Position numbers and translations under genes: made by a program. DNA of 64,000 nucleotides from Halieaceae bacterium (GTDB lineage Bacteria; Pseudomonadota; Gammaproteobacteria; Pseudomonadales; Halieaceae): positions 1,812 through 65,811 of the forward strand of contig JAHEEV010000001.1 in assembly GCA_024640505.1 (NCBI GenBank), read 5' to 3'. Of this stretch, positions 8,870 to 24,216 are shown one piece after another (position 1 is the first letter of the stretch; each line of letters begins with the position of its first letter). The notes beneath the pieces were generated by a model that searched no databases, had not been told where the DNA came from, and saw only the letters and a program-made list of their open reading frames with translations.

Positions 8870-9715
8870 TCAGTCTCGCAGGGGCCGCATGCGCAGGCTG
8901 TGGATCTTGCGCCGGTCCGCATTGATAACCTTGAACTCGAACTGGTCGATGGTGGCGGTTTCGTTGCGGGAGGGCATATGACCCAGTGCCTGGATCACCA
9001 GGCCGCCGATGGTGTCAAACTCCTCATCGCTGAATGTGGTGCCGAAGTGCTCGTTGAAATCCTCGATCGGTGTGAGCGCCTTGATGAAGTAATCGTCGTC
9101 GCTGATGCGGCGGATGTAGCGGTCAGCTTCGACATCGGTCTCGTCCTCGATATCCCCGACGATCTCCTCGAGCACATCCTCGATGGTCACCAGACCGGCA
9201 ACCCCCCCGTACTCGTCGATCACAATGGCCATATGGTTGCGGTTCTCGCGGAATTCCCTCAGCAGGACGTTGAGCCGCTTGCTCTCCGGGACGACGACGG
9301 TAGGGCGCAGCAATTCCTCTATCCTGAATTTGCTGCTGTCATTCTCGAGAATCTGCGGCAGCAGATCCTTGGCCAGGAGGATGCCGAGGATATCGTCGTG
9401 GCTTTCGCCGATCACCGGGTAGCGGGAGTGGGCGGCCTGGATGATCTGCGGCAACATCTCCTCCAGCGGGGAATCTGCCCGGATAACGACCATTTGCGCC
9501 CGGGGGATCATGATATCGCGGGCCTGCATATCGCTGACCTGCATCGCGCCTTCCATGATGCTGCGGGCGTCCTCGTCGATAACCTCGTTCTCGGCGGCGA
9601 TGGACAGCACATCTTCCAGGTCATTGCGATTGCGCGGCTCGGAGGAGAACAACTGCCCGATCTTTTCTATCCAGGATCGCTCTTCCGGCTCGTTGTCGGA
9701 TCGTTCGTCGTTCAT
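8870..9715 (-). CDS. corC: CorC/YbeX family protein with CBS pair and transporter-associated domain
   Basis: This 281-residue cytoplasmic protein has an N-terminal acidic segment, two CBS domains (around [13 protein letters not shown] and [28 protein letters not shown]) and a C-terminal CorC/HlyC domain. The last motif is the family signature. CorC-type proteins are linked to magnesium/cobalt resistance and, as YbeX, to ribosome metabolism. The start overlaps the ybeY stop by four bases and lnt follows after 18 bases. Confidence 0.95.
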
Positions 9716-10190
9716 GCTCCCGCCTGCTCCAGGACTGATTTGCTTCCGTAGGGGCAGGGATAACCGAGACCCGCCAGGATCGTCGTCTCCAGTGCCTCCA
9801 TCCGTGCCGCGTCGTCGTCCTCGACATGGTCATAGCCCAGCAGGTGAAGGGTGCCATGGACGGTCATGTGCGCCCAGTGTTCGGTCTCGTGCTTGCCCTG
9901 CTGCGCCGCCTCCCGCCGGACCACCGGTGCGCAGATCACGATATCGCCGAGCAGAGGCAGCTCGAGTTCCGGTGGCAGTTCGCTGGGAAACGAGAGTACA
10001 TTGGTCGGGCCGGGCTTGCGGCGGTACGTCTGGTTGAGCGAGGACATTTCCGCTTCATCCACCACCCGTACGGTGATTTCGACGTCCCCGGGATGACCCT
10101 GCGCGGCCAGCGTTGCCGCGATCCAGTCACGCAACTGACGCGCTTCGGGCGCGGGGGCTTCACTGGCCCGCTGGAGTGCCACCTGCAGGC

Positions 10191-10194
<4 letters not shown>
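9712..10194 (-). CDS. ybeY: Endoribonuclease YbeY (rRNA maturation/ribosome quality control)
   Basis: YbeY is a zinc-dependent single-strand RNase needed for 16S rRNA 3' processing and ribosome quality control. The 160-residue protein carries the zinc motif [11 protein letters not shown] (three histidines) near residue 115-125 and the upstream TNVLSFP segment typical of the family. It overlaps ybeZ at its start and corC at its end by four bases each, indicating translational coupling. Confidence 0.96.
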
Positions 10195-11213
<1,019 letters not shown>

Positions 11214-11252
11214 AATAACCTGTTGCCACGGCGGGCATGATTGATAAGTGTA

Positions 11253-11280
11253 AGCATATACGGGATTTTGTCGCCGTCAA
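11253..11280 (-). promoter_or_regulatory. Sigma-70-type promoter for ybeZ-ybeY-corC-lnt
   Basis: On the minus strand there is TTGACG (-35, 11275-11280), a 16-base spacer, and TATGCT (-10, 11253-11258). The -35 hexamer overlaps the stop codon of miaB (11277-11279), so the operon could be transcribed both from miaB and from this promoter. Confidence 0.5.
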
Positions 11281-12608
11281 CCGACGCTCAATACGCCGCG
11301 CAGTGAGTTCGGCAGTGCCTCGATGACGTCCACCTGCACAAACTGGCCGATCAGTGACGGGTCATCGGCAGGGAAATTGACGACCCGGTTGTTCTCCGTG
11401 CGGCCCTGCAGCTGCCCCGGATCCTTTTTCGAGATGCCCGTGACCAGGATGGTGTGGGTGCGGCCCACCATCTGCCGGCTGATCTGCTGTGCATGCTGGT
11501 TGATCCGGGTCTGCAGGATCTGCAGGCGCTGTTTCTTGGTGGCTTCATCGGTGGTGTCCGGGAGCTCCGCCGCCGGTGTGCCCGGTCTGGCGCTGTAGAT
11601 AAAGCTGAATGAGACGTCGAAACCGATCTCCTCGATCAGCTTCATGGTGGCGGCGAAATCATCGTCAGTTTCGCCCGGAAAACCGATGATGAAATCCGAG
11701 GAGATACTGATGTCGGGGCGAATTTTGCGCAGTCGACGGATCTTCGATTTGTATTCCAGTACCGTGTGCCCCCGTTTCATGGCCGCCAGGATGCGGTCGG
11801 AACCGCTCTGCACCGGCAGGTGCAGGTGATCCACCAATTGTGGAATCTGCGCGTAGGCCTCGATGAGGGCATCGGAAAACTCCACCGGGTGGGAGGTCGT
11901 GTAACGGATGCGTTCGATGCCCGGGACGCGCGCCACGAAGTGCAGCAGTTCGGCGAAGTCGACGGTCTCGCCCTCGTGGTTCTCTCCCCGGTAGGCGTTG
12001 ACATTCTGGCCCAGAAGATTCACTTCGCGCACGCCGCCGTCGGCCAGGTGCGCAATCTCGGCGATGACGTCATCCAGCGGCCGGGAAACCTCCTCGCCGC
12101 GGGTGTAGGGCACGACACAGAATGTGCAGTACTTGCTGCAGCCCTCCATGATGGAGACAAAGGCGGTGGGGCCCTCGACCCTGGGCTCGGGCAGTCGGTC
12201 GAATTTCTCGATCTCGGGGAAGCTGACATCCACCACGATGGCGCCCCCCGGGCCGCGCTGCGCCATCATCTCGGGCAGCCGGTGCAGGGTCTGTGGTCCG
12301 AACACCAGGTCCACGTAGGGGGCGCGCCGGCCGATCTCCTCCCCCTCCTGGCTGGCCACGCAGCCGCCCACGCCGATCACCAGGTCCGGGTTCTTCTGCT
12401 TCAGCTGCTTCCAGCGACCCAGCTGGTGGAAGACCTTCTCCTGAGCTTTTTCCCTTATGGAACAGGTGTTTAGCAGCAGCACGTCGGCTTCTTCCGGGTT
12501 TTCCGTGGGTACCAGGTCACAGCGCTCGCGCAGCAGGTCTCGCATACGGGCCGAGTCGTATTCGTTCATCTGGCAGCCGTGGGTCTTGATGTACAGCTTC
12601 TTGCTCAA
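11277..12608 (-). CDS. miaB: tRNA-2-methylthio-N6-isopentenyladenosine synthase MiaB
   Basis: MiaB is a radical-SAM methylthiotransferase that modifies A37 of tRNAs reading U-starting codons. The 443-residue protein has the N-terminal MTTase domain with its three cluster cysteines ([31 protein letters not shown]), the radical-SAM motif CSKYCTFC near residue 157, and a C-terminal TRAM domain. It is followed by the ybeZ operon, a conserved gammaproteobacterial order. The start at 12608 ([15 protein letters not shown]) is the standard one. Confidence 0.97.
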
Positions 12609-12792: not shown

Positions 12793-13137
12793 ATGGCCAG
12801 AGAACCCGTCTACAAGGTGATTTTCCAGAACGGCAGCCAGCTGTTCGAGGTCTTTGCCCGCCAGATCTACCAGAGTGACATGTGGGGCTTCATCGAGGTG
12901 GAGGAGTTCGTGTTCGGTGAGCGCTCCCAGATCGTGGTCGATCCCAGCGAGGAGAAACTGAAGAACGAGTTCAGCGGGGTGACCCGCAGCTACATCCCCC
13001 TCCAGGCCATCATTCGCATCGACGAGGTGGACAAGGAAGGCAGCGCGAGAATATCCGATGCGCCCGCCACGGGCGGCAATATCGCCAGCTTTCCCTTCAC
13101 CGGCGCCCCGACGGGACAGAAGGGCAGCGAGGAGTAG
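12793..13137 (+). CDS. DUF1820 family protein
   Basis: This 114-residue soluble protein begins MAREPVYKVIFQNGSQLFEVFARQI and contains WGFIEVEEFVFGE and IPLQAIIRIDEVDKEG, the hallmarks of the DUF1820 family found across Gammaproteobacteria. Its function is unknown. The ATG has a GAGAGGAAAG site 4-12 bases upstream. It is divergent from miaB. The C-terminal 25 residues are low in conservation signals and rich in Gly, Ala and Pro. Confidence 0.85.
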   Translation: MAREPVYKVIFQNGSQLFEVFARQIYQSDMWGFIEVEEFVFGERSQIVVDPSEEKLKNEFSGVTRSYIPLQAIIRIDEVDKEGSARISDAPATGGNIASFPFTGAPTGQKGSEE

Positions 13138-13283: not shown

Positions 13284-13679
13284 ATGAAATTACCTGCCCT
13301 GACCTTGTTGGCCATGCCCCAGCGCCTTGCTGTCCGCAGCGGCGTGATGCTGCTCTTTCTTATCCACACCAGTATGCCCCTGGCCGCCAATCCGGTGCCG
13401 GCCGATGCCGCGTCCGTGTCCCGGGGCGCCCAGACCTTCCAGCAGTACTGTACGGAGTGTCACGGACGGGACGGGCGTGCCCAGGTGGACGTGATTTCCG
13501 ATGCCACGGACCTCACCGATCCCGAGGCCTATTACAGCGGCACGAGCGAGCAGGATATCTACAACAGCATCGCTTTTGGTGCCGGGGTGGCCATGCCGCC
13601 CTGGGAGTCTCAGCTCAAGAGCGAAGCAGAAATCTGGCACCTGGTGAATTTCATTCGCAGCCTGTGGGCAGATGAGTAA
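13284..13679 (+). CDS. Small periplasmic c-type cytochrome
   Basis: The 131-residue product has an N-terminal export signal with a hydrophobic core (VMLLFLIHTSMPLAA) and a class I cytochrome c domain: heme-binding CTECH (C56, C59, H60) and a likely axial Met in AMPPW. One heme is predicted. It lies 42 bases upstream of the Tat-exported TPP enzyme on the same strand, so it is a candidate electron acceptor for it in the periplasm; that is inference. The start is uncertain: a second in-frame ATG at residue 11 would give a shorter, more typical signal. Confidence 0.88.
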   Translation: MKLPALTLLAMPQRLAVRSGVMLLFLIHTSMPLAANPVPADAASVSRGAQTFQQYCTECHGRDGRAQVDVISDATDLTDPEAYYSGTSEQDIYNSIAFGAGVAMPPWESQLKSEAEIWHLVNFIRSLWADE

Positions 13680-13721
13680 CGGGCAAACCACGGACAACTT
13701 CGGTTGCAAAAGGATTCCGAG

Positions 13722-15704
13722 ATGAGCAGTGACAACAGAGCGGGCGACGACACGGGCGTGACCGACAATTCCCGGCGCGAGTTCCTGCGCAAATCCGCCG
13801 CCGGCGTGGGAGTGGCGGTGGCCGCCGGGGCCAGTGCCGGTGCATTCGCCGCGGACACTACCGACCTCGGTGAGGTTAAGATTCCCTCGATTCGCATTCC
13901 CGACGATTTCAGCGACTCCCTGGCCCAGGATGCCGCGCCGGGCAAGTTCGAGGGGCGGGGGATGAGCGGGGCCGAGGTATTCGCCCAGGTCTGCCTGAAG
14001 GAGAACCTGGCGGGCTTGTTCTGCTGCCCCGGTAACTACACCGTGATCAATGCCCTGGCAGCCGCCGGAATCCCCGCCTACGGGGGGCGTTCGGAAGGTG
14101 CGATGTGTGCCATGGCGGACGGTTTCTCCCGCGCCACGGGTGAGGTCACAGCGACCTCGGGCACGGAGGGTCCCGGTTTTACCAACATGATCATGAATAT
14201 CGCGGCAGCCAACGCCGCCCGCACACCCCTGCTGGTGCTGGCGTCCAACATGCAGCTTGCCGGAGACGACCGGGAAGCCTTCATCCAGACCGGCTACCAG
14301 CAGCCCCTCACCACGGGAATCAAGAAATACGGCAAGCGCCTCATCGACCCTTCGCGGGTCCACGAGTACGGCGGCTATGCCTTCCGCCAGCTCAAATCCG
14401 GCGTGCCCGGGCCGGTGCACCTGGATTTTCCCGCGGAGGTGGCCCGCGCGCGCTTCAAGGACCCCTCGGAGCTGAAGGATTTCTACGACAGGAGCCAGTA
14501 CCGCAGTGAATCCCGGGCGGCGCCCGCCCCGGCCGACATGGCGCAGGTGGTCAAGCTGCTCGACAACTCCCGGCGGCCGTTGATCGTGGCCGGCCAGGGC
14601 GTGTTCCAGCGCAGGGGCTGGGATGCGCTGATGCGTGTGGCGCAGCAGGGTGACATCGCGGTGGCCACCTCCGGACCGACCCGCGGCGCCTTCCCGGACG
14701 AGCACCCGCTCTGCGTGATGGCGGCACCGGATGCGCTGCTCAGCGCCGACCTGGTGATCTTTGTCGGCCAGTATTGCATGCCCAGCCCCGGTGAATACCG
14801 CTTCAACCCCGAGATCAAGACCATTCGCGTGCATCCCGAACAGGAAGACCTGGGGCGCAACTGGCCCCTGGACCTGGGGGTGGTCAGCGATGAGGCGCTG
14901 TTTCTCGAGGCCCTGGCCGACGCCGTCAGGCGCAAGAAACGCGCCCCCTGGGTCGAGGAGATCGCCACGGCGAAACAGGCCTACCAGAAGCACCTCGACG
15001 AGGTCTATCAGCTGGGGCTGGGGTACAGCGAGCAGACCAATCACCTGCACCCGGCGGTGATCGCCCGGGATACCCAGCACTTCATAGACACCGGCACGGA
15101 TGACCGTCTGGCGGTTGTCAGCGGTGGCGGCGGCTGGACCAGCGGCCTGTTTGCGGGTCGTTACCTGCGCGCCCGGCGTCCGGGACATATGATCGTGCCC
15201 GCCTACCAGTACGGCGCCATCGGCCCGGACATGTCCATGATGATGGGGGTCTCTGCCGCCGTGCAGCGCGGGGTCGGCCCGCAGAAGGGCTATGAGGGAG
15301 CGCCGACGATCTGCATCACCAGCGATGCGGGCATGGCCTACAGCCTGTTTGAGCTGGACACGGCGATCAAGTATGGCCTGCCCACCATCACCATCGTCTA
15401 CAACAACAACGCCTGGGGCGTCTGGCCCAACGCGGCCCGCTCCGCCCGCTCTATGCACATGTACCTGTTCCAGGAGAATCTGCGCTACGACCAGATGGCG
15501 CAGGGCCTTGGCGCCAACGGCGAGTACGTGCGTACCCCCGAGGAGTTCCGCGCGGCCCTGGCCCGTGCCTACAGGCTCGGCCGGGACGAGAAGGTATCGA
15601 CCCTGATCAACTGCCAGGCCCTGAAGGAGTTCACCTCCCCGCGGGACTTCCCCCCGGGTATCTCGCTGAACGCGGAGCCGGGCACGGGAGCCGTGGCCCA
15701 CTGA
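13722..15704 (+). CDS. Thiamine-pyrophosphate enzyme (acetolactate synthase/2-oxoacid decarboxylase-like) with Tat signal
   Basis: The 660-residue protein has the three-domain TPP-enzyme layout of acetolactate synthase and pyruvate oxidase relatives. The activating Glu is E125 in RSEGAMCAMADGFSRATG. The cofactor motif near the C-terminus is SDAGM (D535) followed by NNN (561-563), with the Mg-binding Asp and Asn kept although the usual GDG is changed. What is unusual is the N-terminus: SRREFLRKS with R18-R19 followed by an Ala/Gly-rich hydrophobic stretch, a clear twin-arginine signal. The protein should therefore fold with TPP in the cytoplasm and be exported. I chose the ATG at 13722, which has AAGGA upstream. 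Substrate and electron acceptor are unknown. The cytochrome upstream and the coupled gene downstream suggest one operon. Confidence 0.88.
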   Translation: MSSDNRAGDDTGVTDNSRREFLRKSAAGVGVAVAAGASAGAFAADTTDLGEVKIPSIRIPDDFSDSLAQDAAPGKFEGRGMSGAEVFAQVCLKENLAGLFCCPGNYTVINALAAAGIPAYGGRSEGAMCAMADGFSRATGEVTATSGTEGPGFTNMIMNIAAANAARTPLLVLASNMQLAGDDREAFIQTGYQQPLTTGIKKYGKRLIDPSRVHEYGGYAFRQLKSGVPGPVHLDFPAEVARARFKDPSELKDFYDRSQYRSESRAAPAPADMAQVVKLLDNSRRPLIVAGQGVFQRRGWDALMRVAQQGDIAVATSGPTRGAFPDEHPLCVMAAPDALLSADLVIFVGQYCMPSPGEYRFNPEIKTIRVHPEQEDLGRNWPLDLGVVSDEALFLEALADAVRRKKRAPWVEEIATAKQAYQKHLDEVYQLGLGYSEQTNHLHPAVIARDTQHFIDTGTDDRLAVVSGGGGWTSGLFAGRYLRARRPGHMIVPAYQYGAIGPDMSMMMGVSAAVQRGVGPQKGYEGAPTICITSDAGMAYSLFELDTAIKYGLPTITIVYNNNAWGVWPNAARSARSMHMYLFQENLRYDQMAQGLGANGEYVRTPEEFRAALARAYRLGRDEKVSTLINCQALKEFTSPRDFPPGISLNAEPGTGAVAH

Positions 15705-16186
15705 TGTCGGCCGCCACCGAGGTGGGGGATATCCTGGAGGGTTACGCCAGTCGCGGTGTATTCCGCGGGTTCAGCCGTCACCAGGGCAGGGGCGGCAAAG
15801 GTGTTTTCCGGCTGCTGTGGCATCGCGACCAGGTATTTCAGCTGGAGTTTGATAACCGCCGGCAGCGTCTGCGGATTGCCTGCGTTATCCCGGCAGTCCC
15901 CGCCGCCTCACCGATGTACCGCGACCTGAAAGCCTGGTTGAAAGGGCGCCAGGATGCAGCGCTGCCGGACCACCGCCGCTGTGACCCGGACAAGGTCTCC
16001 CTGCGGACCTACAACCGGGGAGGAGACGTGGCCCTCACCCTGACCGTACTCGACGATGACCTCGACTACGGGGTGCGGAAACTCGTCAGTCTCGTCAACG
16101 AGCTCTACCTGGACTTTCTCTCGAGTGGTCTCTACTACGACTGGCTGGTGGAAACCTTCTCCCTGGATCCGGATAACCCTTTCTAG
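15704..16186 (+). CDS. Unknown small protein translationally coupled to the Tat-TPP enzyme
   Basis: This 160-residue protein starts inside the stop codon of the TPP enzyme (TGATG), so its translation is coupled. It has no signal peptide or membrane segment. The predicted pattern is a beta-rich first half (GVFRLLWHRDQVFQLEF, LRIACVIP), a charged middle, and a C-terminal helix VRKLVSLVNELYLDFL followed by YYDWLVETFSL. This loosely recalls the YbjN / type III chaperone-like fold. A cytoplasmic chaperone or export-proofreading partner for the TPP enzyme is a reasonable guess, but I recognise no family with confidence. Confidence 0.8.
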   Translation: MSAATEVGDILEGYASRGVFRGFSRHQGRGGKGVFRLLWHRDQVFQLEFDNRRQRLRIACVIPAVPAASPMYRDLKAWLKGRQDAALPDHRRCDPDKVSLRTYNRGGDVALTLTVLDDDLDYGVRKLVSLVNELYLDFLSSGLYYDWLVETFSLDPDNPF

Positions 16187-16266: not shown

Positions 16267-17547
16267 TCAGTTCTCCGCCAGGCGCTGCCTGATGGAGGCC
16301 AGCTTGACACAGACCACGAAGGCTTCCACCGTGGCGCGCACGTCTTCCAGTGACGGAAAGGTCGGTGCCAGCCGGATGTTGCGATCCTCGGGGTCGCGGC
16401 CATAGGGCCAGGTCGCGCCGGCGGGGGTCAGTTTCACACCGATGGCATCCGCCAGCCGCACCACCTCCCGTGCCAGTCCAGGCCGCGTGTCAAAGGAAAT
16501 GAAGTAGCCTCCCCGGGGTACGGTCCAGTCGCCCATGCCGGTACCGGCGAGCTCCCGGTCCAGGGTCTCGAGTACGGTCTCGAAGCGGGGGCGGATAATC
16601 AGGCAGTGCCGGCGCATGTGCGCCGCCAGGTGCTCCTCACCCTGCAGGAAGCGGACGTGCCGCAGCTGGTTCACCTTGTCCGGACCGATGGTCTGGAATG
16701 CCAGGTGGGCTTTCAGGGCAGCCAGGTTGCCCGGGCTGCTGCTGAGGAAAGCCACGCCGGAGCCGGCAAAGGTGATCTTGGAGGTGGAGCCGAACTGGAA
16801 CACGCTGTCCTCGGTGCCGTGCTCTTCGCAGCGGTGCCGGATGGAGGCCAGTGCCGGTGCATCGTCGTACAGTGTGTGCACCGCGTAGGCATTGTCCCAG
16901 AATACGAGGAAGTGCTCCCCGGCGATACGCCCGAGGCGGGCGATCCGGTCCACGGTTTCGTCGCTGTACACACAGCCAGTGGGGTTGGAAAAACGGGGGA
17001 CGCACCACATGCCCTTGATCGACCTGTCCTCCCTGACCAGCGCTTCCACCTGGTCCATATCGGGTCCGTGGTCCAGCATCGGCACCGGAATCATCTCGAT
17101 ACCCAGGTGTTCGCAGATGGCAAAGTGGCGATCGTAGCCGGGGGAGGGGCAGAGGAATTTTACGGTGTCCTCATTGCCCCAGGCGGATTCCGGGCCGCGC
17201 AGGCCCTCGCTGAGGGCAAAGTCCAGGGTCAGGTACATCAGGGTCAGGCTGGAATTGCCGCCCACCAGTGTCTCTTCGGCGGGCACCCCCAGCATCGAAC
17301 CGAACAGTGCCTTCGCCTCCGGCAGCCCGTCCAGTCCGCCGTAGTTGCGCACGTCGGTGCCATCCGCCGCCCTGTAGTTGCCCTGCAGGACACCGTCCAG
17401 TGCGTCTGACAGGGCGACCTGCTCCACGCCCGGCTTCCCCCGGGTCAGGTCCAGTGACAGCCCGAGGGATCCGAGTCGCTCGTACTCTGCATCCAGTGAC
17501 GCCAGTTGTGATTCCAGCTCGCCGGCTGGCAATTGATCGATAGGCAC
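16267..17547 (-). CDS. Aminotransferase class I, aspartate aminotransferase type Ic-like
   Basis: This 426-residue PLP enzyme has SLDLTRGKPG near the N-terminus, YGGLDGLPEAK, PRFSNPTGCVYSDE, FWDNAYAVHTL and the PLP lysine in GSTSKITFAGSG. This motif set belongs to the unusual bacterial aspartate-aminotransferase family (PF12897, type Ic) and not to AspC. I chose the GTG at 17547 because GAGGAG stands 5 bases upstream; an ATG at 17586 lacks such a site. It converges on the unknown protein ending at 16186 and is divergent from the Lon-like gene. Substrate specificity cannot be read from sequence. Confidence 0.85.
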   Translation of the reverse strand: MPIDQLPAGELESQLASLDAEYERLGSLGLSLDLTRGKPGVEQVALSDALDGVLQGNYRAADGTDVRNYGGLDGLPEAKALFGSMLGVPAEETLVGGNSSLTLMYLTLDFALSEGLRGPESAWGNEDTVKFLCPSPGYDRHFAICEHLGIEMIPVPMLDHGPDMDQVEALVREDRSIKGMWCVPRFSNPTGCVYSDETVDRIARLGRIAGEHFLVFWDNAYAVHTLYDDAPALASIRHRCEEHGTEDSVFQFGSTSKITFAGSGVAFLSSSPGNLAALKAHLAFQTIGPDKVNQLRHVRFLQGEEHLAAHMRRHCLIIRPRFETVLETLDRELAGTGMGDWTVPRGGYFISFDTRPGLAREVVRLADAIGVKLTPAGATWPYGRDPEDRNIRLAPTFPSLEDVRATVEAFVVCVKLASIRQRLAEN

Positions 17548-17718
17548 GTGGGCTCCTCTATCTGCACGGGATCTGGCGGGTGGCAATCACGCTCGCCGGG
17601 AACGGAAGTATACCGCCACCCGGACCGCAGTAGTACGGGGCGCGTCGCGCCGCAGTTGAAAACCCGGCGCTCGACCACATATACAGGAAGTAATGCGGAG
17701 CGGACAGGCGCCTGAGTA

Positions 17719-21428: not shown

Positions 21429-22417
21429 GCCGCCCCGCGGCGCACAGGGGCTCTTGCCGTGACAATGGCCCGGCGCGGTGCGGGATAGCCCTCGATTGTT
21501 TTGCTGCGGTCTTGCGGATCGAGAAAGTTGGCGAGGGAGTGGAAGCGCATCCAATCGGTACTGCGCTGCTCCTGTGTGCTGGTCACCGTGACGTCGATCA
21601 GTTCGGGATCACGGAAGCCAAGCTTGCGCAGCCAGCTGAGCAGCGTGTCGGTGCTGGGCAGGAACCAGACATTGCCCATTCTGGCGTAACGGCCTTCGGG
21701 AACCAGGGTTGCCCCGGGCCCGCCCTCGATCACGAGGGTTTCCAGCACCAGCTGGCCCCCGGGGCGCAGGCAGTCCCGCAATTCCTGCAGGTGATCCATC
21801 GGGGAGCGGCGGTGATAGAGCACGCCCATCGAAAACACCGTATCGAAGGCCTGCAGCTTTTCCGGAACGTGCTCGACCCCCAGGGGCAGCACCCAGATAT
21901 TGCGTTGCTGCAGGTATTTCTGCAGTGCCCAGAACTGCACCACGAACAGGGGGGTGGGGTCGATCCCGATCACTTCCGAGGCGCCCTCCCCGAGCATGCG
22001 CCAGCAGTGGTAGCCGCTGCCACAGCCGACGTCCAGTACCCGCCGGTCCTGCAGCGGGTCGATGTGGTCCTGCAATCGTGACCACTTCCAGTCCGAACGC
22101 CACTCGGTGTCGATATGTATCCCGAACAGCTCGAAAGGCCCCTTGCGCCAGGGGTGCAGTGCCATAAGACCGCTGTGCAGCTGCTCCAGGGTGTCTGCTG
22201 CCAGGGGGGAGTGGCACGACGCCGCGACCCGGGAAGCGCTCAGGTCGACACGGTCAGGCCGGATTGACGGCAGGGATTCCAGGACTGCCAGCCAGCCCGC
22301 AAGGTCCCCGTAACGCTCGTGCGACAGCCCGCCGGCGATCTGCCCTGGCAGCACTGTCGCCCAGCGATCCAGCACACTGCCGCGCCAGCGTTCGATCAGG
22401 TCCTGGTAGTCGATCAT
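21425..22417 (-). CDS. cmoB: tRNA U34 carboxymethyltransferase CmoB
   Basis: CmoB transfers carboxymethyl from carboxy-S-adenosylmethionine to 5-hydroxyuridine 34, completing cmo5U in wobble positions. The 330-residue protein has the family N-terminus HPWRKGPFELFGIHIDTEWRSDWKW and the SAM-binding motif VLDVGCGSGYHCWRMLG. I use the ATG at 22417, whose ATGA overlaps the stop of cmoA; an upstream ATG at 22459 lies inside cmoA. The stop codon overlaps that of the convergent permease. Confidence 0.95.
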   Translation of the reverse strand: MIDYQDLIERWRGSVLDRWATVLPGQIAGGLSHERYGDLAGWLAVLESLPSIRPDRVDLSASRVAASCHSPLAADTLEQLHSGLMALHPWRKGPFELFGIHIDTEWRSDWKWSRLQDHIDPLQDRRVLDVGCGSGYHCWRMLGEGASEVIGIDPTPLFVVQFWALQKYLQQRNIWVLPLGVEHVPEKLQAFDTVFSMGVLYHRRSPMDHLQELRDCLRPGGQLVLETLVIEGGPGATLVPEGRYARMGNVWFLPSTDTLLSWLRKLGFRDPELIDVTVTSTQEQRSTDWMRFHSLANFLDPQDRSKTIEGYPAPRRAIVTARAPVRRGAA

Positions 22418-23145
22418 TTCAGGGCGATAAGGGAGGCAAAATTGAAGCACTGGAACCATACGTCACAACTGCCGAAGCCGGCCGCTGCCATCCGCTCGCG
22501 ATGCCGGTCGAGTGTCTCCGGCAGCAGCACCTGTTCCAGCGCGCTCCGTTTGCGGGCGATCTCCAGGTCGCTGTAACCGTTGGCCCGCTTGAACGCGTGG
22601 TGCAGGTCGATGTTGAGCGTATCCAGGTGCGGGTCGGAAAAAGTCACTTTCTCGGACAGCACCACAATACCCCCGGGCAGCAGTCCGTCATAGATGCGCC
22701 GCATCACCGCATCGCGAACCTCGACCGGCACGAACTGCAGGGTGAAATTGAGTACCACGACCGAGGCACCGTCGATCGCCACATCTTCGAGGTCGGCGCA
22801 GACCAGCGACACCGGTGTGTGATGGGTGTCGGTTGCCACGGTGTCGCGGCAGCGTTCCAGCATGGCCCGGGAGTTGTCCACGGCGATGATCTGGCAGTCC
22901 TGCTGTTGCAGGTTCTGGCGCATGGCGAGGGTCGAGGCGCCCAGCGAGCACCCCAGGTCGTAGAGATTGCTGCCCGGCGTTGCGTAGCGACCGGCCAGCA
23001 GGCCGGTCATGGCTATGATGGTGGGGTAGCCCGGTACCGAGCGCTTGATCATGTCCGGAAAGACCCGGGCGACGCTGTCGTCGAAGGTAAACAGTCCCGT
23101 GTCCAGCACCGGATCGGTGTAAAGGGTATCTCGACTGTCGGTCAC
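22414..23145 (-). CDS. cmoA: Carboxy-S-adenosyl-L-methionine synthase CmoA
   Basis: CmoA makes carboxy-SAM from SAM and prephenate for CmoB. The protein reads TLYTDPVLDTGLFTFDDSVARVFPDMIKRSVPGY, the diagnostic CmoA N-terminus, and has DLGCSLGASTLAM as the SAM motif and LNFTLQFVP. A GTG at 23145 gives 243 residues, close to E. coli CmoA (247). An ATG at 23232 with a GGGA upstream would add 29 residues, so the start is not certain. It overlaps cmoB by four bases. Confidence 0.94.
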   Translation of the reverse strand: MTDSRDTLYTDPVLDTGLFTFDDSVARVFPDMIKRSVPGYPTIIAMTGLLAGRYATPGSNLYDLGCSLGASTLAMRQNLQQQDCQIIAVDNSRAMLERCRDTVATDTHHTPVSLVCADLEDVAIDGASVVVLNFTLQFVPVEVRDAVMRRIYDGLLPGGIVVLSEKVTFSDPHLDTLNIDLHHAFKRANGYSDLEIARKRSALEQVLLPETLDRHRERMAAAGFGSCDVWFQCFNFASLIALK

Positions 23146-23294
23146 GGTAGGTCCACGGGCCTGGGCTGGATCAAGGAATGGGGGAATAGGGCCAAAGCCC
23201 GCAATTTTAGCATGACTTTTTGAACCGGACATGCTGTATTCCCTGTGCCATAGCCGCCACAATGCGAGGACAAGCACGTCAGAGGGAGTCCGTC

Positions 23295-24122
23295 ATGGAG
23301 GCAGTTGCACAGTCGTTCGAGCCGGATCTGCGGCCACCCCGGTTGCGACACAGCATGATGGAACTGGGCCGGGTCGTGCTCGAGATAGGCAGCACTGCCA
23401 TGCTCGCGCCGATTTTGCGGACGCTGCCTGCGGGGGACGGCCATACCATCATGACCATTCCCGGCTTCATGGGCGCCGACGGATCCACCTCCCAGTTGCG
23501 CCGCTTCCTGAACCGTCGCGGCTACAATGCCATACCCTGGGGTCTCGGCCGCAATGCCGCAGAGGTGCGCTCCGAGGACATCGATGACTTCCTCGCGCAT
23601 CGGGAGAGAATGGAAGTGATCATTGCCGAGCGGGCGGAGCGGGAGTTTCGCGCCAGCGGGGGCAAGGTCACCCTTATCGGCTGGAGCCTGGGCGGACTCT
23701 ATGCGGTGGCGGTCGCCCACCGCTTTCCCCAGTGGATACGGCAGGTGATCACACTCGGCACGCCCTTCGGGGATCCGCGCGGCACGGCACTCTACAGCAT
23801 CATGGGCAGGATCTATGAGAACGAGGACGATGTGGACGAGGCCGCGCTGCAGCGCTGGGTAGAGCATACCTACAGCGGTGGCACACTGTCTGTGCCGGTG
23901 TTGACCCTGTTCAGTGAATCCGACGGGATCGTAGGGGCCGGGATCGCACAGTGCCAGGGTGATCCCCGCTACGTCACCAATATGGCGGTCATGGCGAGCC
24001 ACGTGGGCTTCCCCTTCAACCCGCTGGTGTTCGCGGTCATCGCGAATCATCTCGTAGAGCCCCACGAACGGTGGTCGATTTGCGGGAGTGATTACATCCG
24101 TCCCCTGGTCAGGCAGGTCTGA
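23295..24122 (+). CDS. Alpha/beta-hydrolase, lipase/acyltransferase-like
   Basis: The 275-residue protein has an alpha/beta-hydrolase core with the nucleophile elbow GWSLGG (Ser near residue 138), an upstream oxyanion-type segment IPGFMGADGSTSQL, and a C-terminal histidine candidate in SHVGFPFNP. The family is close to PGAP1/GrpA-like and lipase class 2 esterases. No signal peptide is seen, so it is probably cytoplasmic. The ATG at 23295 has AGAGGGAG upstream. It is divergent from cmoA and its substrate is unknown. Confidence 0.82.
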   Translation: MEAVAQSFEPDLRPPRLRHSMMELGRVVLEIGSTAMLAPILRTLPAGDGHTIMTIPGFMGADGSTSQLRRFLNRRGYNAIPWGLGRNAAEVRSEDIDDFLAHRERMEVIIAERAEREFRASGGKVTLIGWSLGGLYAVAVAHRFPQWIRQVITLGTPFGDPRGTALYSIMGRIYENEDDVDEAALQRWVEHTYSGGTLSVPVLTLFSESDGIVGAGIAQCQGDPRYVTNMAVMASHVGFPFNPLVFAVIANHLVEPHERWSICGSDYIRPLVRQV

Positions 24123-24216
24123 GCAGGCGGGGAGTCGTTCTCGGGCTGTCGGGCTGCATCCTGGCGGGCAGAAGCGCCCGTGGATGTCTCACGGAGAATC
24201 CGGACGGATCAGCGCC

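Follow-up and report, generated by a model that had tools for sequence, protein, structure and literature searches.

Enzymes that use thiamine diphosphate (ThDP) are normally cytoplasmic, and to our knowledge their chemistry, the breaking and making of bonds next to a carbonyl group, is thought of as cytoplasmic as well. In a stretch of 64,000 nucleotides from a Halieaceae bacterium (positions 1,812 to 65,811 of contig JAHEEV010000001.1, assembly GCA_024640505.1; hereafter the window), we analysed a unit of three genes encoding a one-heme c-type cytochrome, a ThDP enzyme preceded by a twin-arginine translocation (Tat) signal, and a small partner protein. The reading that we favour, at a probability of approximately 0.52, is that the partner acts as a dedicated chaperone in maturing the enzyme, which Tat then exports to the periplasm for oxidation by cytochrome c.

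The solved proteins nearest to this enzyme by sequence are BbmA, 2-hydroxyacyl-CoA lyase, oxalyl-CoA decarboxylase, and benzaldehyde lyase, with which it shares the three ThDP domains, the catalytic glutamate, the Mg/ThDP motif, and the fold (Z 33-36), at approximately 19-26% identity in the aligned structure. Relative to this group, the enzyme described here adds the Tat signal and an I-x-I-P leader, has a shorter nucleotide/flavin adenine dinucleotide (FAD) loop, and is paired with a cytochrome and a partner protein. Pyruvate oxidases of the PoxB type are likewise ThDP enzymes that send electrons to respiration, as is proposed here; they are flavoproteins of the cytoplasmic side, whereas the present enzyme has a short loop at the flavin site and a periplasmic cytochrome as its candidate acceptor.

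With respect to export, the locus resembles TorA-TorD and DmsA-DmsD, in which a folded, cofactor-bearing Tat substrate and a protein dedicated to it are encoded in the same operon; torCAD also includes a gene for a c-type cytochrome, torC. The cofactor is ThDP here and the molybdenum cofactor there, and TorD is all-helical, whereas the predicted model of the partner is alpha/beta with six strands and does not show a TorD-like fold. Class IA chaperones of the type III secretion system (T3SS; Spa15, SycT, CesT, InvB) are similar to the partner in small size, a gene beside that of the cargo, and, at modest scores, predicted fold, but the cargo here carries a Tat signal, and the partner is not acidic as a rule and has no match by sequence in the PDB or Pfam. 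In the passages compared, TorD is described as encoded with its cargo (torCAD) and as aiding cargo maturation (PMC6708511), and class IA chaperones are described as encoded beside their cargo (PMC5398634).

Gene layout and the twin-arginine signal

The unit comprises the following features:

13284..13679, + strand: c-type cytochrome with one heme motif and, at the N-terminus, a hydrophobic export signal (PF13442, 1.3e-12; ATG at 13284, stop at 13677-13679, one CxxCH)
13710..13714, + strand: likely ribosome-binding site AAGGA for ATG 13722, read from the sequence
13722..15704, + strand: Tat-type ThDP (TPP) enzyme of 660 residues (TPP_enzyme_N, _M, and _C above cut-offs; family of 72 loci)
13722..13850, + strand: putative twin-arginine signal peptide, residues 1-43 (SRREFL at 13770-13787; likely cleavage after AFA, by eye)
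14094..14096, + strand: codon of the catalytic glutamate E125, invariant in a 38-member alignment
15704..16186, + strand: 160-residue partner protein without a signal peptide (predicted T3SS-chaperone/YbjN-like fold; enzyme gene nearby in 65 of 67 testable loci)

Coordinates confirmed the three-gene layout described in an earlier note on this DNA. The stop codon of the cytochrome gene is separated from the enzyme ATG at 13722 by 42 bases, and the ATG of the partner gene (15704) overlaps the TGA of the enzyme gene (15702-15704) by one base; the partner gene is probably translationally coupled to the enzyme gene in this genome. An in-frame TTG at 13704 is an alternative start of the enzyme open reading frame, and ATG 13722 is the likely one because AAGGA sits seven bases upstream of it; counting from this ATG reproduces the residue numbers of the earlier note.

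Relatives were sought in one genome per species by a scan keyed on two enzyme-internal peptides, MCAMADG and [TA]NMIMNI, which returned 70 relatives at 52-84% identity (68 of them labelled as metagenome-assembled genomes, MAGs). The main set of 72 loci, many of them closely related, comprised the window, these 70 relatives, and locus L030. Outside it stood G055 and the second copy of G022, both fragments without the N-terminus, and three further copies (G093, G1359:C129, and G1357:C143).

The signal that the earlier note had read in the enzyme was found throughout the main set: an RR-x-[FL]-hydrophobic motif preceded the enzyme domain in all 72 loci, and 69 of them had the strict form [STN]RRxF. 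Overall, the motif was present in 74 of 76 enzymes (the main set together with G093 and G1359:C129) and absent from G1357:C143 and L135. Loss of the signal in most close homologues, which the earlier note had raised as an objection to its own proposal, was looked for and not seen, the motif being kept in 74 of 75 family copies at 49-84% identity. Both arginines (R18 and R19) were invariant in the 38 aligned members. The same alignment bore on the residues that the earlier note had listed as kept: E125, D535, and N561 were invariant, and N562 and N563 nearly so. A moderately hydrophobic stretch, judged by eye, follows the motif, and a loose pattern detected an AxA-like cleavage site in 66 of the 73 rows scanned. 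For comparison, 20 further ThDP enzymes encoded in this or related genomes were inspected; extending the frame upstream revealed an RR-like string in four of them, none of which, by eye, was placed like a signal peptide. A TatC gene is present in the genome.

If the N-terminus were not a working Tat signal, the protein would be a ThDP enzyme of the usual cytoplasmic kind, with an unrelated cytochrome gene as its neighbour. Such a reading has in its favour the usual location of ThDP enzymes; we nevertheless consider it very improbable, given the invariant arginine pair across four phyla, the frequency of the AxA-like site, and the lack, by eye, of any comparable signal in the 20 other ThDP enzymes. 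Judged by these features, the enzyme is very probably exported by Tat. Open-literature searches pairing Tat or twin-arginine with thiamine gave no link of the two in one protein in the passages compared (PMC3403918, PMC8124467, PMC3306737), and the absence of an exported ThDP enzyme from print is only as strong as those searches.

The Tat-bearing family also shares a conserved I-x-I-P leader. This leader was considered as a binding site for the partner and dropped, as G1357:C143 keeps it without motif and partner. Long N-terminal extensions were rejected in two loci, that of L063 being an out-of-frame reading and that of L076 crossing masked bases.

Gene pairing and the copies without the signal

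The module is conserved yet sporadic across four phyla (Pseudomonadota, Acidobacteriota, Planctomycetota, and Hydrogenedentota), and Tat signal, cytochrome, and third gene co-occur in these four, the earlier note having suggested a check of this for signal and third gene. A homologous cytochrome gene was directly upstream of the enzyme gene in 64 of 72 loci (64 of 71 testable; L046 was excluded, with only 175 bases upstream). All 64 of these cytochromes have a single CxxCH, preceded in 60 by a hydrophobic stretch. Partner candidates were limited by position and length for the family profile; 65 of 72 loci had a partner gene close to that of the enzyme, or 65 of 67 when five loci cut by a contig end were left out. 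In L048, the partner gene lies upstream of the cytochrome gene.

Sixteen whole genomes, chosen because they carry the enzyme, contained 18 partner genes, and by coordinates every one of these adjoins one of the 21 enzyme copies. The three partnerless copies were G093 (contig end), G1359:C58 (L095), and G1357:C143. Within the order, the partner was found in 3 of 381 genomes: that of the window, the enzyme-bearing G055, and, as a weak partial match, G267. The match in G267 (L134:6899-7069) is low-scoring, covering 53 positions within the last third of the partner, and the 14 kb read contained no enzyme; it is either a remnant or a distant relative. Two or three enzyme copies are carried by G1357, G1358, G1359, and G022, and in these genomes a copy with no partner gene at its locus, such as L095, is found where another copy has one. 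An apparent enzyme-partner fusion, an open reading frame of 812 residues in L101, was rejected: it runs over unknown bases and its frame is shifted.

Two relatives lack the twin-arginine motif. The first, G1357:C143 (L148, 18000-28000; enzyme at 22263-24134, - strand), is the third enzyme copy of an acidobacterial genome, 61% identical to the window enzyme and 69-70% identical to the Tat-bearing L049 and L058. It keeps the glutamate, the aspartate, an Ala-rich stretch, and the I-x-I-P leader, and neither cytochrome nor partner was found in 10 kb; the genome has two partner genes, each beside another enzyme copy. Because its closest kin carry the Tat motif, signal, cytochrome, and partner were probably lost secondarily, and G1357:C143 is probably a relocated or decaying copy. 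The second (L135:7920-9761), on plasmid p3 of Rhizobium leguminosarum, is an enzyme relative at 55% identity that keeps the catalytic glutamate and aspartate and looks cytoplasmic; no twin-arginine motif, cytochrome, partner, or leader was found within 8 kb. Motif, partner, and cytochrome were thus jointly absent in both motif-less relatives. Since copies without motif and partner retain the catalytic residues, the partner appears to be tied to export rather than to catalysis. That it is dedicated to the exported enzyme can be stated with good confidence.

The surroundings of L135 contain nonribosomal peptide synthetase (NRPS), AMP-binding, dioxygenase, and phosphopantetheinyl transferase (PPTase) genes, and L135 may be a ThDP enzyme of natural-product metabolism that resembles BbmA. 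BbmA itself (8x3x, titled ThDP-dependent HKA synthase) was the top sequence match of the window enzyme among solved proteins; literature searches naming it gave no paper on BbmA among the matches listed. The title of this best match and the NRPS, AMP-binding, and PPTase genes around the plasmid relative would suit a module that makes or breaks a secreted natural product, as the plasmid relative may do in the cytoplasm, with a biosynthetic or protective rather than an energetic role. No synthetase, however, was among the 20 annotated neighbour proteins of the Tat family (many other clusters being unannotated), and we regard a natural-product role as improbable.

Predicted fold of the partner and chemistry of the enzyme

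The partner of the window matched no Pfam family above cut-off, no NCBIfam family, and no sequence in the PDB. A hydrophobic N-terminus was absent from all 45 partner members, and the YbjN profile was not among the eight Pfam families that these members matched up to E 0.1. The AlphaFold2 model, built from the 45 sequences with a predicted local distance difference test score (pLDDT) of 94.2, runs helix, four strands, helix, two strands, two helices. The first Foldseek match was a chain of the ExsC-ExsE complex (E 2e-3). In a second fold comparison, T3SS chaperones or YbjN-like proteins filled, by our count, the top 14 rows and 26 of the top 29, and phage T4 MotA accounted for the remaining three; 2plg was counted as YbjN family after PMC5398634, and 8q8o on the basis of a literature listing alone (PMC10948618). 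Scores ranged over Z 6.1-8.2 (YbjN, AmyR, and DR1245 at 6.1-7.2 and 2plg at 8.2), and the best of them, per the tool, is at a level that can arise without kinship. With such modest scores, the resemblance of the partner to T3SS chaperones and YbjN-like proteins is one of predicted fold, kinship being unproven. Unlike the YbjN family, the partner is tied to one enzyme gene.

The earlier note had taken the third protein for a chaperone or export-proofreading partner of the enzyme. The predicted secretion-chaperone fold speaks for that proposal, whereas binding of the enzyme is something that we infer; a chaperone role seems moderately likely. The partner could instead be a structural or regulatory subunit, either exported bound to the enzyme as a hitchhiker or working as a YbjN-like regulator within the cytoplasm. 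Its one-to-one association with the enzyme also suits a subunit, no partner has a signal-peptide-like N-terminus, and the predicted fold is common to DR1245, 2plg, and AmyR, the last of which is described without a secretion role in the passages compared of PMC5398634. Against a subunit stand the motif-less relatives, which keep the catalytic glutamate and aspartate yet have no partner gene in the DNA read, and the two Tat-bearing loci that lack the partner locally; we consider it rather unlikely.

In the enzyme, each of the three ThDP domains exceeded its curated Pfam cut-off, and the catalytic glutamate and the Mg/ThDP (GDG...N) motif were present in the columns aligned with 15 other ThDP enzymes, all of which have glutamate in the E125 column. 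The label of acetolactate synthase/decarboxylase-like enzyme given in the earlier note did not stand: the acetolactate synthase large subunit equivalog TIGR00118 scored 164.7 bits against a cut-off of 538.35. Scores were also below cut-off for the oxalyl-CoA decarboxylase (TIGR03254, 106.7 against 739.4) and 2-hydroxyacyl-CoA lyase (NF058623, 139.7 against 600) equivalogs. By sequence, the enzyme is nearest to the lyase/ligase branch rather than to acetolactate synthase. Fold comparison of the enzyme model (pLDDT 77, with residues 1-56 and 177-203 below 50) returned the same lyase/ligase set, with near ties that included acetohydroxyacid synthase and glyoxylate carboligase.

A loop of the middle domain, which we take to contact FAD or another nucleotide, was 8 residues short in all nine family rows relative to acetolactate-synthase-like paralogues (a label assigned by eye), which have a G-M-H-G loop there, and it was also 8 residues shorter than in BbmA. 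Because the loop at this presumed FAD/ADP site is short, a flavin relay of the pyruvate-oxidase type is less likely, and we therefore favour a ThDP intermediate that gives up single electrons directly to the cytochrome. A chemical precedent consistent with such transfer may be benzaldehyde lyase, which oxidises aldehydes with an added oxidant; its authors, in the passages compared, propose sequential single-electron transfer (PMC12352684).

The short loop would also suit the principal alternative, a periplasmic non-oxidative lyase, decarboxylase, or carboligase, with the cytochrome serving a dehydrogenase of its product or substrate, e.g., one of the pyrroloquinoline quinone (PQQ) dehydrogenases encoded nearby in certain clades. 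The closest relatives by sequence are lyases and ligases, the fold comparison ranks these first alongside acetohydroxyacid synthase, and 19 of the 72 loci contain a gene of cluster C2, annotated in one member as PQQ dehydrogenase-like. This cluster was, however, not seen in the DNA read for the other 53, the window included, whereas the cytochrome is directly upstream in 64 of 71 testable loci. We take non-oxidative chemistry to be somewhat unlikely.

According to the favoured reading, of a chaperoned enzyme that is exported by Tat and oxidised by the cytochrome, the enzyme would fold in the cytoplasm and acquire ThDP and Mg there, since this is where ThDP is located and Tat carries folded proteins. 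The partner, possibly through contact with the signal peptide, would bind the precursor and retain the enzyme until it is folded, acting in the manner of TorD and DmsD but with a T3SS-chaperone fold. The folded enzyme would then leave via Tat, and the cytochrome via Sec, heme being added in the periplasm. There, a 2-oxoacid, aldehyde, or acyloin would react on the enzyme to give a Breslow-type intermediate, whose electrons would pass singly to the adjacent cytochrome c and on to the respiratory chain, with no import of the substrate. Electron transfer from enzyme to cytochrome is a step for which we see even odds. Where testable, the earlier note's interpretation was mostly borne out, and as a whole it is partly supported, the oxidative chemistry, the hand-over of electrons to the cytochrome, and the substrate being inferred.

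Several observations weigh against the proposed route, the modest fold scores of the partner among them. Class I T3SS chaperones have an acidic isoelectric point (pI), whereas the partners had a median pI of 7.75, with 17 of 45 under 6.5 and that of the window at 6.8; acidity was dropped as support, the partners not being acidic as a rule. No Foldseek match reached E <= 0.001. Two loci, L095 and L099, have no partner despite a Tat motif, the enzyme match of L099 being partial. The cytochrome was missing beside the gene in L030 and in an acidobacterial clade of six (L092-L097) and is therefore not indispensable; L100, the sister of this clade, does have it, and L095 has a related open reading frame with two heme motifs approximately 2 kb upstream. 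Six of the 15 other ThDP enzymes were also 1-6 residues short at the middle-domain loop. The joint absence of motif, partner, and cytochrome comes from two cases, and a tree places one of these, L135, beside the Tat family (support 90/67, long branches). The scan demanded exact peptides, and diverged relatives without Tat may be missed. Neighbouring genes differ between clades and indicate no substrate. Finally, YbjN proteins have the same fold without a known secretion role, according to the passages compared of PMC5398634.

A broader and more tentative reading, to which we assign somewhat less than even odds, is that these enzymes constitute an unnamed, widespread group of periplasmic ThDP cytochrome c reductases, and their partners a new class of Tat chaperones built on the T3SS-chaperone fold. 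Heme, rather than flavin or iron-sulphur, would draw the single electrons, and the T3SS-chaperone fold would have been recruited independently for a second secretion route. A conserved family of exported ThDP enzymes would imply that 2-oxoacids or acyloins can be oxidised or cleaved by bacteria ahead of their uptake, and ThDP would join the cofactors carried by Tat; a cytochrome-coupled periplasmic ThDP enzyme would be a handle for electrode-driven biocatalysis. The partner would be a small, testable case of a secretion-chaperone fold serving Tat, for which the natural copies without signal, partner, and cytochrome are built-in controls.

Distribution, neighbouring genes, and the module site

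Carriers within Pseudomonadota were Halieaceae, OM182, Pseudohongiella, Burkholderiaceae, and Dechloromonas. The enzyme was found in 5 of 38 near relatives, in 3 of 390 genomes of the order (E 1e-60), in 1 of 369 genomes of the class (E 1e-50; the window's own), in 2 of 398 genomes of the phylum (E 1e-50), and in 1 of 248 genomes of the family of G884 (E 1e-60). Full-length family members scored at least 655 bits, and the next ThDP enzyme among the 38 near relatives at most 135 bits; no intermediate scores between the family and other ThDP enzymes appeared at the thresholds of the order, class, and phylum searches.

A common pathway was sought among the neighbouring genes and rejected: recurrent neighbours were clade-specific (one member per cluster annotated). 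They were PQQ and molybdopterin dehydrogenases in OM182-like Gammaproteobacteria; penicillin amidase, tetratricopeptide repeat (TPR), and UnbV/ASPIC proteins in Holophagales-type MAGs; PF04199 cyclase-like proteins, amidohydrolase, and epoxide hydrolase in Bryobacterales; and DUF3604 in L044/L045. In L044, the PQQ dehydrogenase gene lies just before the module (L044:3-1085), and in L045 the DUF3604 gene lies just after it (L045:10521-12491), with the same cluster in L044. The acidobacterial loci L092-L097 keep the Tat enzyme, and L092, L096, and L097 keep the partner; a glyoxalase-family cluster (C53, annotated in L097) follows closely in L092 and L100 and is further off in L097.

In the window, two genes outside the module border its site:

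12793..13137, + strand: DUF1820 gene (PF08850), left border
16267..17586, - strand: putative aminotransferase-like gene (neighbour comparison), right border

The 3.1 kb between them hold nothing else evident besides the three genes. Cytochrome and enzyme follow the DUF1820 gene in four enzyme-bearing genomes of the genus, the window included. In 7 of 23 loci (the same-genus G001 and six others), the module is missing and the DUF1820 gene adjoins the aminotransferase-like gene; in 12 of these 23 relatives' loci, neither arrangement was seen within the DNA read. The three genes appear to be a discrete, portable module. On the left flank of the module, positions 8870-12608 of the window contain a MiaB-like gene and three further genes on the - strand, which we take to be PhoH/YbeZ, YbeY, and CorC-like.

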